DNA of 44,249 bases from Thermoplasmata archaeon (lineage in GTDB: Archaea > Thermoplasmatota > Thermoplasmata > Methanomassiliicoccales > Methanomethylophilaceae). The first letter of the stretch is position 1. Each line of letters opens with the position of its first letter. The position numbers were made by a program, and so were the translations under genes. Shown piece after piece: positions 15,928-23,985 of the stretch. The stretch is taken from contig SUSX01000005.1 in the NCBI GenBank assembly GCA_015063195.1, positions 1 to 44,249 of the forward strand. The letters are read 5' to 3'. Under the pieces are notes generated by a model. It was not told the origin of the DNA. It was given only the letters and a program-made list of their open reading frames with translations, and searched no databases.

Positions 15928-16785
15928 ATGAAGTACCAAATCATTTTCAATCCCATGGCTCGCAACAAAAAGTCCAAGAAGTTTCTGGACCAGGTTTGCG
16001 GCAGATTGGACAAAGAAGGACTCGAATATGTGGTCCACTCCACCGAATCCAGAGGTCACGCTGAAAAGATAGCTGGAGAACTTTCTAAAGAACATAAGGA
16101 AATCATTGTAGTCGGCGGAGACGGAACCATACACGAGGTTATCAACGGTATTTCAAATCACTCAGATGTCAATTTGGCACTGATCCCTGCAGGAACAGGT
16201 AACGACTTCTGCGGAGGTTTCAACGGAACCGTAGATTCTGTTATGGATGCTGTCATTGCCGGAAAGACACAGCCCACCGATTTTATGGAATTCAACGACC
16301 GTATCTGTGTCAATGTCGGCGGAACAGGACTCGATGTAAGTGTCCTGGAAGGTGTCGCCAAGGGAAAGATGAAGAGCAGCATCAAGTACACATGGTGTCT
16401 CATCAAATGTGTTTTCACATACAAGGCACAGAAGGTAAGAGTTGTCGCAGACGGTTATGAGTTCGATGAGAAAGCACTGATCGTTGCAGTATGCAACGGA
16501 ACAAGACTCGGAGGTGGACTCCCCATATGTCCTACAGCATCCGTCGATGACAAGAAAATCGAAGTTGTCATTGTCAAGGATATGAGCACTATGAAACTTC
16601 TCGGTGCAGTTTCATATCTTCTCCGTAACAGGCTTTTGGAAGTTCCTTTGGTAGAGCATATCACATGCAACGAGGTGGAGTTCATTCCCGAGAAAGCATG
16701 TACCATCCAGATGGACGGTGAACTCTATCATAACGTCACAAGTCTCAAAGCAAAGGTGAGACAGGCGCTCAACCTTTACAGATGA
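15928..16785 (+). CDS. Diacylglycerol-kinase-like lipid kinase (YegS/DgkB family)
   Basis: A 285-residue soluble kinase. The N-terminal IIFNPMARNKKS and the nucleotide loop GGDGTIHEV at residues 63-71 are diagnostic, followed by IPAGTGNDFCGGF. Family members phosphorylate lipid alcohols or related substrates with ATP; in an archaeon with ether lipids the substrate is unknown, possibly an archaeol-type diradylglycerol. A TATA-like TTATATAC lies about 35 bp before the ATG. The gene is followed after 114 bp by thrS, which has its own promoter. Confidence 0.87.
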   Translation: MKYQIIFNPMARNKKSKKFLDQVCGRLDKEGLEYVVHSTESRGHAEKIAGELSKEHKEIIVVGGDGTIHEVINGISNHSDVNLALIPAGTGNDFCGGFNGTVDSVMDAVIAGKTQPTDFMEFNDRICVNVGGTGLDVSVLEGVAKGKMKSSIKYTWCLIKCVFTYKAQKVRVVADGYEFDEKALIVAVCNGTRLGGGLPICPTASVDDKKIEVVIVKDMSTMKLLGAVSYLLRNRLLEVPLVEHITCNEVEFIPEKACTIQMDGELYHNVTSLKAKVRQALNLYR

Positions 16786-19161: not shown

Positions 19162-21804
19162 TCACAGCCTGGAAATCCTGTTTTTTAATTCCTCAGTCAT
19201 CTCGGTAGCAGACTCATAATCCTTGGGATCCATAGTCTCTCCGAATATTATACTGAGTTTCCTTCTCTTCAGACTGATCAATTTCGGATACTTCTTATGA
19301 CGAGGGAAAATCTCGAACGAACCGTCTATCCTTACAGGAAGGATCCTTTTTCCGGACTGTATGGACAGTTCTGCAGCTCCTTCTTTGAAAGGAAGCATAG
19401 TGCCATCCCTTGAACGTGCACCTTCGGGGAAGATCATCATGATGTACTTCTCATTCTGAAGACATTCCAATGCTCTCTTCGTTGCAGGTAAAGCATCTCC
19501 GAATCTGTCAACGGGAATGGCACCGAACACATCAGCCAATCTGCTTTCGATTCCGTGGTCGTCCAACCTTTCCTTTGCCGCCATTCCTGCGATACGGCTG
19601 TAATCTATCCTGCCGTATCCTGCATTGACGATCCAGAAAGGATCCAGATAGGATTCGTGATTACTGCTTATAATGTAGTTGTCTCCGTCGGTGGGGATAT
19701 TCTCCAATCCCTTGATTTCAAATTTGTAAGGCATGGAGAGTCTTCTTGCCCATTTACGGAGTCTCTTACCTGTCACCTCATTCCTGGGTGAAGGGTACAT
19801 ACTCATGTCCTGCTCAGGAACATCGTCCACGACAATCTCATCATCATTTTCGAGGGTTTCCAACAGATCTTTTACGGTAACCGCTCTTGCAAAAAGATAT
19901 CCCAAATCACGGTCGTAGATCTGTTCGAGGTCACATTTTACATTGAACAACGTGATCGAATCAAGACCCAAATCGTCAATGAGTTTGCTGTCTTCAGTGA
20001 TACGTACGTCAGGCCTGTATTTCCTCAATACGGAGAAGAGGTCATCCATATCCTGCTGGATTGTCTTGTTGCTCTCAGGTGACGGTTTCTTTCCGTACAA
20101 TGCAATGTCCCTGAGAACGAAACGTCTGATTTTTCCCACTGAAGTTTTAGGAATTTCTTCAATGAAATGGATCTTGTCAAGACTGTACATCGATGCAGCC
20201 GCTGCAGATGAAGATCTCAATTCGCTCTTAATCTCATCCTTCCTCTCATTGGTGAATGACTCATCCAATACGAACATGTGGATTTCATCGTATCCTTCCT
20301 CTGTAGGAACTCCGCAACATGCAATCTGGTATGCACCGTTGATCAATTCTGCATAGTAAGCGTCAACATCCTGAGATGCTACCTTCTTTCCGTTACGGAG
20401 GATGATACTTTCTTTGATCCTTCCGACGATACGTACTCTTCCTTTTCTGTCGATATATCCTCTGTCTCCTGTATGGAACCATTCGCCGTCGAATGCCTTC
20501 TCAGTGGAAACGGGATCCCTGAAGTATCCTTTCATTATCAGCTCGGTGTTGACCTGAATCTCTCCGATTCCTTCCTCGTCAACATCAGCCACTCTGACTT
20601 TTACAATATCGACAGCATCATACTTTCCTGAGGATTCGTATTTGATGTTGTCTGCAGCTGAAATAGCAGCGATAGGAATGTTGGTTTCAGTTGTAGCGTA
20701 GAAGTTGACCCATTCCAATCCCATTCCTATGAAGAATTTAGGTGTCGAATCTTTAACCGGAGATGCACCTGTTACAATGGTTACTATATTTTCACCGAGG
20801 AACTGTGAATAGATTCCCTTAAACAGTTTTCTTCCCATCTTTATTCCAGTCTTCCTTCTGATAAATCCGTTAAAATTCAATATGGATTTGATAGCAAAAT
20901 GTACCAACTTTCCTTTCTCACGGATCTTCTCGAAAGCCTTCTGCTCCATGATGTCGAAGACGGCGGGAACTGTAAGGAAGTGTGTGGGCTGGAACATTTT
21001 CAGTCCTTCGAGATAACGTAAAGGTGTGACGTTCTCAAGGAAATCCAGTTCAGCTCCCCAGAAGAATGCTACCATTGCAGAGATGTATCCTGCTATGTGA
21101 TTCAAAGGAAGGACGTAGAAGTAGTTAATTTTGCCAGGAACACCGTCAAGACCGACAATCTTACTGTCCACTTCCATGGCACGCATGACACTGTGGTATG
21201 TCACATTCACACCTTTCATCAATCCTGTGGTTCCCGATGAGAAAAGGACAATCATCACATCTTCATCCGGATCGACTGTGTGTGAAACGATGTTTTCAGG
21301 AGTTCCTGCCACATGTGTCAAAACCCTCTTTTCCTCTCCGAATATGAAACAAGGCATGCTGTTTCTGAATGATTCGTCAAAGTTCTCCAATCTGTCTCTG
21401 ATTGTTATGAGTGCAGATGGGTCGGATATTTTCAGAAGTCTTCTGATCTCGTCACTGGGAAGTGAATCATCAATCAATGCTGCGGTGATACCGATGCATG
21501 GTAACGAGAACAGGGTCATGAGATAGAATGGTGACAGAGGCGCGACTATTGCAACTCTGTCTCCTGCAGTGAAACCGCGGTCGGTCATTTCCTTTTTTAC
21601 GATTTCAATCTGTTCTTTGACCTGTGAATATGAAAATCTAAGTTTCTCTCCGGAATCATATGCATAAACCAATGCACTGTGCGGACCGAATTCACCGGTA
21701 ATCCTTTCAACGAGTTCGGAGAAATCATGACGTGTGAATCTGATGCTGCGGTCGGACGGGATGATTTCCTTCCCTGCGGCCGACGCCTTACTGGAACTTG
21801 ACAC
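19162..21804 (-). CDS. Acyl-AMP ligase / acyl carrier protein / PlsC acyltransferase fusion
   Basis: An 880-residue three-domain protein. Residues about 1-570 form an adenylating ligase: P-loop SSGTTGLMKG (189-198), YATTETN (369-375), the hinge FHTGDRGYID...GRIKESI (443-466) and PKTSVGK with catalytic K558. Residues about 580-655 form an acyl carrier protein with DLGLDS and the pantetheine serine S616. Residues about 690-880 form a PlsC/LPLAT acyltransferase with HESYLD (H716, D721) and FPEGARS (792-798). The fusion should activate a carboxylic acid, load it onto its own carrier and transfer it to an alcohol such as a lysolipid-like acceptor. A PPTase gene precedes it in the operon, 18 bases away. 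The acid and acceptor are unknown. Confidence 0.9.
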   Translation of the reverse strand: MSSSSKASAAGKEIIPSDRSIRFTRHDFSELVERITGEFGPHSALVYAYDSGEKLRFSYSQVKEQIEIVKKEMTDRGFTAGDRVAIVAPLSPFYLMTLFSLPCIGITAALIDDSLPSDEIRRLLKISDPSALITIRDRLENFDESFRNSMPCFIFGEEKRVLTHVAGTPENIVSHTVDPDEDVMIVLFSSGTTGLMKGVNVTYHSVMRAMEVDSKIVGLDGVPGKINYFYVLPLNHIAGYISAMVAFFWGAELDFLENVTPLRYLEGLKMFQPTHFLTVPAVFDIMEQKAFEKIREKGKLVHFAIKSILNFNGFIRRKTGIKMGRKLFKGIYSQFLGENIVTIVTGASPVKDSTPKFFIGMGLEWVNFYATTETNIPIAAISAADNIKYESSGKYDAVDIVKVRVADVDEEGIGEIQVNTELIMKGYFRDPVSTEKAFDGEWFHTGDRGYIDRKGRVRIVGRIKESIILRNGKKVASQDVDAYYAELINGAYQIACCGVPTEEGYDEIHMFVLDESFTNERKDEIKSELRSSSAAAASMYSLDKIHFIEEIPKTSVGKIRRFVLRDIALYGKKPSPESNKTIQQDMDDLFSVLRKYRPDVRITEDSKLIDDLGLDSITLFNVKCDLEQIYDRDLGYLFARAVTVKDLLETLENDDEIVVDDVPEQDMSMYPSPRNEVTGKRLRKWARRLSMPYKFEIKGLENIPTDGDNYIISSNHESYLDPFWIVNAGYGRIDYSRIAGMAAKERLDDHGIESRLADVFGAIPVDRFGDALPATKRALECLQNEKYIMMIFPEGARSRDGTMLPFKEGAAELSIQSGKRILPVRIDGSFEIFPRHKKYPKLISLKRRKLSIIFGETMDPKDYESATEMTEELKNRISRL

Positions 21805-21822
21805 GTCTCTCGGTATACACTC

Positions 21823-22389
21823 TTATTTGTTAAGTGTATCGTGTGTCAGCTCTATGTTGCCTATGGTTTTAGGTGAACATACAGAGATTATGTAGTTCTG
21901 ATAATTCAATGATATGGCAGAATATCTGGCACTTTCATTCTCCGAATCGTACACTTCATTACAGTCAAAGTCTACGATTATCCTTGACGGATCGATACGC
22001 AGTCCCAAACCGATCATTTTCAGATATGCCTCTTTGCATGTCCACATTCTGAAAAGATATGTAAGTCTGTTATCGGATAATTTCATGTATCGGATTTCTT
22101 TTTCATTTAACGCTTTATCAAGATTCTGTGACAGTTTTTCATCTATCTTTTCTATATCTACACCGATAGGTTCGTCGGATGTGACAAATACAGTGTATTT
22201 TCCTGAATGTGAAATGTTGAAGTAAGTTTTCTCTGAAATTGGCTTGCCGTTTTCATCCTCACCAATGCAACATGACAGATTTCTGTAGTATTCGGATGCT
22301 TTTCTTTCAGAACTTCGAGGAGTTCCGTCACCGAGATCGGAATGATCAAGAATATGACAGATGACAGTTTCACAATTGTCCGTTTTCAT
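21823..22389 (-). CDS. Sfp-type 4'-phosphopantetheinyl transferase
   Basis: A 188-residue protein. Diagnostic blocks are FNISHSG (57-63), GVDIEKID (76-83, with magnesium ligands D78 and E80) and WTCKEAYLKMIGLGL (116-130). The enzyme transfers phosphopantetheine from CoA to a carrier-protein serine. It is encoded 18 bases upstream of the fusion protein, whose carrier serine S616 is the obvious target. It is shorter than Sfp (about 225 residues) but keeps the core. The divergent DUF4143 ATPase gene shares its upstream region. Confidence 0.87.
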   Translation of the reverse strand: MKTDNCETVICHILDHSDLGDGTPRSSERKASEYYRNLSCCIGEDENGKPISEKTYFNISHSGKYTVFVTSDEPIGVDIEKIDEKLSQNLDKALNEKEIRYMKLSDNRLTYLFRMWTCKEAYLKMIGLGLRIDPSRIIVDFDCNEVYDSENESARYSAISLNYQNYIISVCSPKTIGNIELTHDTLNK

Positions 22390-22484
22390 ATTGACGGTCT
22401 CCGTTTTTACTGTATAATTATTAAATCTAATAAGATCTTTGCAGATTGTGAATAATCCATTCAGTTGGGGATAAATCTGTTTTC

Positions 22485-22500
22485 TGCAGATTAATCTGCA
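22485..22500. promoter_or_regulatory. Operator-like palindrome TGCAGATTAATCTGCA
   Basis: A perfect 16-bp palindrome. A near-identical one follows with its centre 33 bp away, about three helical turns. Half-sites TGCAGATT (about 22440) and ATAAATCTG (22471) lie just upstream. This is the intergenic region between the PPTase and ATPase genes. Confidence 0.7.
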
Positions 22501-22517
22501 AAAAACAGCATTTTTTC

Positions 22518-22533
22518 TGCAGATAAATCTGCA
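22518..22533. promoter_or_regulatory. Operator-like near-palindrome TGCAGATAAATCTGCA
   Basis: It differs from 22485-22500 by one central base. It ends 41 bp before the ATPase start, where it would overlap or abut the core promoter, a position suited to repression. Confidence 0.7.
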
Positions 22534-22574
22534 AAAAATCGATATGTATTTAACTAAATAAAATCATCAACACT

Positions 22575-23945
22575 ATGATGCTCAGAAGAAAAATGTTTGA
22601 TCAACTCAAAAAATGGAAGTCCAGATCTCACAAATCGTTGCTGATTAAAGGTCAAAGACAGGTTGGGAAGACATATATCATAAGAGAATTTGCCAAATCT
22701 GAGTATGACGATTATATCGAAATCAATTTCTCAAAGGATAAAAGCATCTTCAAAGTCTTTGAAGGTGACCTCGATGTTGATGTAATCATTAATAACATTT
22801 CCATTGTAAAAAACAAAGAGATTGTACCTGGAAAAACATTATTGTTTTTTGATGAAATTCAAGAATGTATGGAAGCATGGGCTTCATTAAAATTCTTTAC
22901 CATAGATGGGAGATATGACGTAATAGCTTCAGGTTCTCTTCTTGGTGTCACTATACCTCATAAAAATAAGTCAGAAATTGAACCTCTGTTACCTGTCGGA
23001 TATCAGGAGCAGTTCACGATGTATTCGCTCGATTTCGAGGAATTCCTTTGGGCAAACGGAGTATCAGAAAAAACTATCGATATTTTACGAAACAACATCC
23101 GAAATAAGGAACCGATTAACGATATCATATATGAAAAAATAAGGGGACTTTTCAAATCTTTTATGATTGTCGGCGGAATGCCGGAGTCAGTTGATAGATT
23201 TGTCAATACTGGAAAGTATAGTGAATCATTTAATGTAATGGATACAATCCTTGCTGTTAGCCGCAACGATATGCTTCGTTACAATTCAGGTGTCAACAGA
23301 GTAAAGACTTTGGAATGTTTTGATGCAATTCCTTCAAATCTTTCCCAATCTAATAAGAGATTTATGTATTCCCGTATTGACGGAGGCGGATCCAGGAATT
23401 CAGCAGAGAAATACATGGGTAATATTCTTTGGATAAGGGATGCGGGAGTTGCCAATATATGTTATTCTCTGTATCAGCCATCTCTTCCGTTAAAAGGAAA
23501 TGAGATAAGGGATGTATTCAGACTCTACTTGTCCGATACAGGGCTTCTTCTGCATATGTTCGGACCGGGTGCAGTTGAAGCTGTAAATGATTGGAACACT
23601 TCGTACAATATGGGTGCTATTACCGAGAATATAATATCAGAGTGTCTTGTAAAATGCGGTTTCGATCTTCATTATTACAGAAAAAATAGCGGTCCCGATA
23701 AGATGGAATTAGACTTTGTAATTGAGACTCCAGCCGGGTGTACAGTGATTGAGGTCAAATCAGGTAAAGACAGGACTGCACCCTCTATCAACAAAGTTTC
23801 TAAATTCCATGAGATTGATGAAAAGATTGTATTTGAAGATTCAAATATATCTGCCGATGAATCTGGAATGCTTCATCTCCCATTCTTTGTTGCTGCATTT
23901 ATGAAAGAAATATATCATAATATGGAAAATTCTTTATTCAGATGA
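22575..23945 (+). CDS. AAA ATPase with DUF4143-type C-terminal domain
   Basis: A 456-residue protein. Walker A GQRQVGKT is at residues 26-33 and Walker B is TLLFFDEIQEC. Family traits follow: LLPVGYQEQFTMYSLDFEEFLW, a FMIVGGMPESVDRF block, and a C-terminal LDFVIETPAGCTVIEVKSGKD stretch that resembles the PD-(D/E)XK fold of DUF4143 proteins. The group is large and mobile in archaea and bacteria; its role is unsettled, with proposed links to toxin-antitoxin or defence loci. The gene is more AT-rich than its neighbours, which suggests transfer. It is bracketed by matching palindromes before (22485, 22518) and after (23970) it. Confidence 0.85.
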   Translation: MMLRRKMFDQLKKWKSRSHKSLLIKGQRQVGKTYIIREFAKSEYDDYIEINFSKDKSIFKVFEGDLDVDVIINNISIVKNKEIVPGKTLLFFDEIQECMEAWASLKFFTIDGRYDVIASGSLLGVTIPHKNKSEIEPLLPVGYQEQFTMYSLDFEEFLWANGVSEKTIDILRNNIRNKEPINDIIYEKIRGLFKSFMIVGGMPESVDRFVNTGKYSESFNVMDTILAVSRNDMLRYNSGVNRVKTLECFDAIPSNLSQSNKRFMYSRIDGGGSRNSAEKYMGNILWIRDAGVANICYSLYQPSLPLKGNEIRDVFRLYLSDTGLLLHMFGPGAVEAVNDWNTSYNMGAITENIISECLVKCGFDLHYYRKNSGPDKMELDFVIETPAGCTVIEVKSGKDRTAPSINKVSKFHEIDEKIVFEDSNISADESGMLHLPFFVAAFMKEIYHNMENSLFR

Positions 23946-23969: not shown

Positions 23970-23985
23970 GACAGATTTATCTGCA
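23970..23985. promoter_or_regulatory. Third copy of the palindrome, downstream of the ATPase gene
   Basis: GACAGATTTATCTGCA matches the reverse complement of 22518-22533 at 14 of 16 positions. It lies 25 bp after the ATPase stop. Having copies on both sides suggests looping, or a mobile cassette that brought its operators along. Confidence 0.55.

Follow-up and report, generated by a model that had tools for sequence, protein, structure and literature searches.

Aas (acyl-ACP synthetase / 2-acyl-GPE acyltransferase; PRK08633, PRK06814) joins acid activation and acyl transfer, as does the protein described here, and it is able to use exogenous fatty acids. The acyl donor of Aas is acyl-ACP (PMC4666226). 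The PlsC of T. maritima (PDB 5kym) has, by sequence, the same fold as the PlsC part of our protein, with the HX4D and glycerol-phosphate motifs, but it is a stand-alone enzyme, whereas ours is fused to its acyl donor. The ElbD-type myxobacterial ether-lipid enzyme is also a multidomain protein for acyl activation and transfer and may be a further parallel, but it has a reductase, a domain missing from our fusion. The same domains, order, and catalytic residues are found in the ligase-ACP-PlsC proteins (819-911 aa) of Fusobacteriota and Rubrobacter, hosts that synthesize their own fatty acids, where these proteins are annotated merely as “AMP-binding protein” (e.g., WP_013388596, WP_339072680, WP_084264133). 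Archaea normally build their membrane lipids without fatty acids, so an acyl-loading enzyme is unexpected in a gut methanogen. Most archaea have neither ACP nor its activating enzyme, and the few exceptions took both from bacteria (PMC3533463), while PlsC in archaea had been described chiefly for lineages from environmental metagenomes, namely Marine Groups II/III, DPANN, and Asgard (PMC6431249). We found no open-access paper on the ligase-ACP-PlsC architecture in Methanomassiliicoccales. The fusion analysed here extends this bacterial architecture, known but apparently unstudied, to an unexpected host.

The window (the whole stretch of DNA that was analysed, 44,249 nucleotides) lies on a contig of a Methanomethylophilaceae metagenome-assembled genome (MAG) of 1.19 Mb in 93 contigs, which is 85% complete and 0.3% contaminated, so gene absences in this fragmented MAG are provisional. 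The features of the locus are listed in Table 1. The 4'-phosphopantetheinyl transferase (PPTase) gene lies upstream of the fusion gene on the same strand, and only 18 nt separate its stop from the fusion start, a spacing that the initial annotation had given and that the ORF coordinates confirm. The two genes are likely in the same operon.

Table 1 Features of the fusion locus and related genes (window positions unless a locus is named)
Feature	Position	Strand	Basis
YegS-type lipid kinase	15928..16785	+	PF00781 E 1e-26; TIGR00147 above cut-off
Ligase-ACP-PlsC fusion	19162..21804	-	ORF, GTG start, 880 aa; domains; full-length homologs
PlsC-type acyltransferase domain, residues 690-880, H716/D721 + FPEGARSRDG	19165..19737	-	PF01553; 5kym profile match
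ACP domain, residues about 581-655	19840..20064	-	Profile matches to solved ACPs; ACP fold match
Phosphopantetheine site S616	19957-19959	-	Invariant in 8 fusions
Ligase C-terminal subdomain, residues 429-567	20104..20520	-	PF13193 E 0.0026, below cut-off
Catalytic lysine K558 in ligase C-terminal subdomain	20131-20133	-	Invariant in 8 fusions
N-terminal AMP-binding domain of the acyl ligase, residues 42-428	20521..21681	-	PF00501 E 3e-41
Sfp/AcpT-type PPTase	21823..22389	-	188 aa; PF01648 E 1.6e-14; active-site residue alignment
Two near-identical 26-nt palindromic repeats, TTTTCTGCAGATWAATCTGCAAAAAA, 33 nt apart	22477..22538	.	Divergent intergenic region upstream of PPTase
DUF4143/AAA_14-type ATPase	22575-23945		Pfam
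DUF4143/AAA_14-type ATPase	L090 4793-6187; L089 4445-5410		blastp
DUF4143/AAA_14-type ATPase	L092 12563-13834		By eye

The initial annotation described a three-domain chain with K558, S616, and H716/D721 intact, and this description stood up to the domain search and to an alignment of eight fusions (three archaeal and five bacterial). A Pfam scan of the eight proteins, with the ACP placed by profile and fold, gave the order AMP-binding, PP-binding, PF01553 within one chain, and K558, D615, S616, H716, and D721 were identical in all of them. The PF01553 (Acyltransferase) match covered residues 695-826 (E 3.3e-21, 75.9 bits against a cut-off of 23), with the NHX4D motif present as NHESYLD and the EGTR-type motif as FPEGARSRDG, in which P793, E794, G795, R797, D800, and G801 were invariant in the same eight proteins. 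The profile of the PlsC part also matched T. maritima PlsC (E 3e-14), and the assignment of this domain rests on sequence, as the predicted model of the ACP-PlsC part was poor over it. For the internal ACP, PP-binding in the window protein alone was under the Pfam cut-off (E 0.057, residues 597-634). But a C-terminal-part profile built from the three archaeal sequences matched solved ACPs (2cgq, E 1.5e-5; 6lvt, 1e-4; 2lol, 1.2e-4), and the predicted model had helices at segment residues 12-26, 46-60, 65-69, and 74-82, where residue 46 is S616; this is the four-helix arrangement of an ACP, whose second helix begins at a DSL/DSI-type serine. The two best Foldseek matches of this model were ACPs, from Pichia complex I and from T. 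maritima (E<1e-3), the latter with TMt 0.83 and rmsd 1.4. Thus the internal ACP proposed in the initial annotation is secure by profile and predicted fold despite its weak Pfam score.

The domain order had been said to recall Aas, and this part of the initial annotation does not hold. In the NCBIfam profile PRK08633 the PlsC part occupies 414-589 and the ligase follows after 765, without an ACP of its own, whereas the window fusion has the opposite order with the ACP built in, and it scored 121.6 bits against the curated Aas cut-off of 1221, so identity with Aas was ruled out. The true relatives are the bacterial ligase-ACP-PlsC proteins of Fusobacterium, Ilyobacter, and Rubrobacter, which share 24-28% identity with the window protein over 85-95% of the chain; for the Fusobacteriota and Rubrobacter proteins compared, identity is 22-28%. 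The top full-length match by tblastn against a plasmid collection was from Fusobacterium vincentii (27.9% over 95%, 224 bits), and the same collection, which was our whole bacterial sample, gave the fusions of Ilyobacter, Rubrobacter, and F. animalis. The bacterial fusions have no PPTase annotated alongside where the neighbourhood is annotated, unlike the window fusion.

Among archaea, at E 1e-60, the fusion was found in two of 102 genomes of the family Methanomethylophilaceae, and in a sample of 390 genomes across the phylum it occurred only in the window's own; it was near full length in 2 of 61 relatives. The second carrier is “Candidatus Methanomethylophilaceae archaeon RGIG5541” (G001) from sheep colon, of the same genus, with two fusion genes that are 72% identical mutually and 57-58% identical to the window protein. 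They lie on contigs with other neighbours, and one contig carries an archaeal riboflavin synthase, which means that the fusion is not an artefact of a single bin. Frames of similar length in G038 and G060 (other Methanomassiliicoccales) were rejected, as they have an N-terminal reductase-like domain and a ligase but no PlsC. As a separate observation, with all genes and domains named by eye, reductase-like and acyl ligase fusions in other Methanomassiliicoccales (L038 5025-10885 and L039 4661-8652) adjoin a polysaccharide-pyruvyl-transferase-like gene, and in L038 an oxidoreductase gene comes after the fusion.

The initial annotation had allowed for the fusion being confined to contaminating bacterial contigs, and the contig itself speaks against this. 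It carries a thermosome gene (NCBIfam 8.9e-229), an archaeal NreA-type gene, and a threonyl-tRNA synthetase gene (thrS) 81-86% identical to full-length sister-genome copies. The order helicase-thrS-(gap)-rubrerythrin-TerC is retained in sister genomes G002 and G005 and kept partly, at contig ends, in G003 and G001. Bacterial contamination was therefore ruled out by the archaeal markers and by this shared gene order. Neither fusion nor PPTase was present in the thrS-rubrerythrin gap of G002 and G005. In their place G005 has genes for a TetR-like regulator and for a large repeat protein, and G002 has several genes, one of them nitroreductase-like, all of these named by eye. Since the sister gaps hold other genes, the fusion, PPTase, and DUF4143 genes are a gain at a variable site, and the fusion/PPTase locus between thrS and rubrerythrin is a recent gain that is ultimately bacterial. 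The fusion may have been gained once, before the two species split, and later relocated, or it may have been gained twice independently.

A homology search and trees of each domain had been suggested as a check; the search and a tree of the ligase domain yielded the bacterial fusions above and a separation from native ligases but no close donor. The ligase-domain tree placed the three archaeal fusions in a single clade (100/100), separate from the ligases native to the order, and the other ligases of the window genome matched the fusion at 57 bits or less, so an origin of the fusion from these native acyl ligases was ruled out. The archaeal trio fell, tentatively, on the side of the Fusobacterium and Rubrobacter fusions (91/92), where Bacteroidota stand-alone ligases also fall inside and branches are long. 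Apart from the RGIG5541 copies, two scans of genome contigs turned up a single weak ligase match and no closer bacterial donor. We consider an ultimately bacterial origin of the fusion well supported. The PlsC part was the best conserved (26-33% identity to bacteria, 68-70% within archaea) and the N-terminal ligase part less so (23-25% to bacterial fusions, 56-57% within archaea). The branch leading to the archaeal trio is long (2.56 changes per column), so the function may have shifted.

The neighbouring PPTase scored 54.3 bits against the PF01648 cut-off of 25, with the GVD/E and WxxKE motifs in the alignment and the core residues D78, E80, K119, E120, and K124 in place. It is short relative to the two-lobed length of about 220 aa, with a shortened N-terminal lobe compared with relatives, but the core is complete. 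PPTase-family genes are rare (9/61 relatives), and both fusion-bearing genomes possess one. The initial annotation called this PPTase dedicated, which agrees with its position here but not with G001, whose fusion on contig C121 has no adjoining PPTase and whose PPTases are on contigs C49 and C151, away from the fusions. The C49 gene follows a 2-oxoacid-oxidoreductase-like and MFS region, as does the PPTase of G002, and contig C47 of the window genome ends inside an MFS gene matching that region, so a second PPTase may be hidden beyond the C47 end. The window PPTase is only 24-28% identical to the other PPTases compared, from which we infer that it was probably acquired separately. The two PPTase genes of G001 (L087 and L089) are near-identical and both near contig ends, and they could be a duplicate or strain variants.

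Our preferred reading, held as a whole with slightly better than even confidence, is that the fusion reached one Methanomethylophilaceae genus by horizontal transfer, was kept with its active sites intact, and is a bacterial-type acyl-ACP synthetase/acyltransferase, complete in one chain, whose target is a lyso-lipid or a comparable acceptor. Because PPTases of the Sfp type act on a broad range of ACP-like domains, the neighbouring enzyme is a good candidate for making holo S616, on which it would install the phosphopantetheine arm. Judging from the domains and their intact residues, the ligase would adenylate a free carboxylic acid, the likeliest being a scavenged fatty acid, and would then load the acyl group from acyl-AMP onto the S616 arm in cis. 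The PlsC domain (H716/D721) would hand it, as the family suggests, to an acceptor that is most likely a lysophospholipid or similar membrane glycerolipid. Among the open-access papers searched, none reported an experiment on a ligase-ACP-PlsC protein, so the transfer from ACP to lipid is proposed by analogy. In the window genome there was no match to ketoacyl synthase PF00109 and none to the PlsC family besides the fusion, and no PlsY was found in the genus or family genomes tested; the PF00109 matches in relatives were short pieces in frames of about 400 aa, thiolase-like by length. A scavenged acid with an imported or otherwise made acceptor is thus more likely than de novo synthesis of bacterial lipids, and the acid is probably scavenged, which makes the suggestion of scavenged acids in the initial annotation plausible. 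Against our reading, no lysolipid transporter gene was found beside the fusion in the window genome.

The acceptor is where the first alternative enters. With the same loading in cis, it could be, instead of a glycerophospholipid, a sugar, an amine, an ether-lipid headgroup, or a small molecule, and the product would then be an archaeal lipid carrying the decoration or an acyl conjugate that is secreted. The PlsC superfamily accepts varied acceptors elsewhere (OlsA acylates lyso-ornithine lipid), the lack of PlsY matches in the genus and of another PlsC in the window genome gives no obvious sign that the cell makes phosphatidate-type lysolipids, and the archaeal clade sits on its long branch. 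However, the LPAAT motifs of the domain are of the standard kind, its closest relative with a solved structure is a 1-acyl-glycerol-3-phosphate acyltransferase, and we regard this alternative as credible but unlikely. A second alternative concerns the acid, which might be a short branched, aromatic, or bile-derived gut acid that ends in a small specialised ester or amide. The N-terminal ligase is too distant from the bacterial fusions for specificity to be transferred, and ligases of the superfamily cover very different acids. But its best NCBIfam subfamily was long-chain-fatty-acid--CoA ligase PRK06187, though far below the cut-off (173 versus 476 bits), and it is fused to a fatty-acid-type ACP and a PlsC domain, which makes a non-fatty acid improbable. 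The patchy distribution, fragmented MAG, and diverged ligase domain might suggest a transferred gene that is decaying or of no importance, or an artefact of binning, but this is very improbable and largely refuted by the archaeal markers and shared gene order, by the two copies in RGIG5541, and by the key residues being intact in all three archaeal copies.

Under the preferred reading of a self-loading lipid acyltransferase, activation, carrier, and transfer form one transferable protein that comes with a PPTase, in host-associated methanogens seemingly without the remaining acyl-lipid pathway. This is a compact, testable case of the entry of bacterial acyl-lipid chemistry into an archaeal cell, and the named bacterial relatives, hitherto “AMP-binding protein,” offer subjects for working out the chemistry. 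A bacterial PlsC accepts in vitro both G3P- and G1P-based lysophosphatidate, i.e., both stereochemistries (PMC13400652), which makes it conceivable on chemical grounds that a G1P-based acceptor is acylated. We propose only tentatively, and think it rather unlikely, that the methanogen builds or repairs ester-linked acyl membrane lipids, possibly on glycerol-1-phosphate or half-ether backbones, with this one horizontally acquired, self-loading enzyme and with fatty acids scavenged in the gut, while synthesizing none itself. The YegS-type kinase gene lies beside thrS on the side opposite to the fusion only here, and the syntenic positions in G001, G002, G003, and G005 lack it; it is possibly a functional partner of the fusion, which would fit phospholipid chemistry.

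Strong matches to this kinase family were patchy in the family Methanomethylophilaceae, occurring in the window genome, in G004 (five, on C12, C257, and C309), and in G019 (two, on C76 and C289). A PlsC-domain protein of 403-411 aa with a cysteine-rich C-terminal half was seen at L094 6176-8714 (G001 C64), L093 5208-7689 (G002 C41), and L097 4723-5934 (G006 C112). In G001 and G002 its gene follows one for an Atg22-like MFS transporter, and it is another bacterial-looking acyltransferase in related archaea. The palindromes upstream of the PPTase have a degenerate third copy at 23970-23985, just past the DUF4143 gene, and their core was found in no other locus examined away from the fusion/PPTase site. 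They may act as an operator or mark the two ends of a DUF4143 unit that was inserted there. In four genomes a DUF4143/AAA_14-type ATPase gene is adjacent to a PPTase gene or only a few kb from it, which may be chance. The gut archaeon G029 of the same family has very large NRPS-like carrier-domain proteins at about 59000-72000 of C3 and about 140800-148100 of C2, with frames of 5225 aa and about 2450 aa, respectively, and a PPTase lies close to the one on C2.
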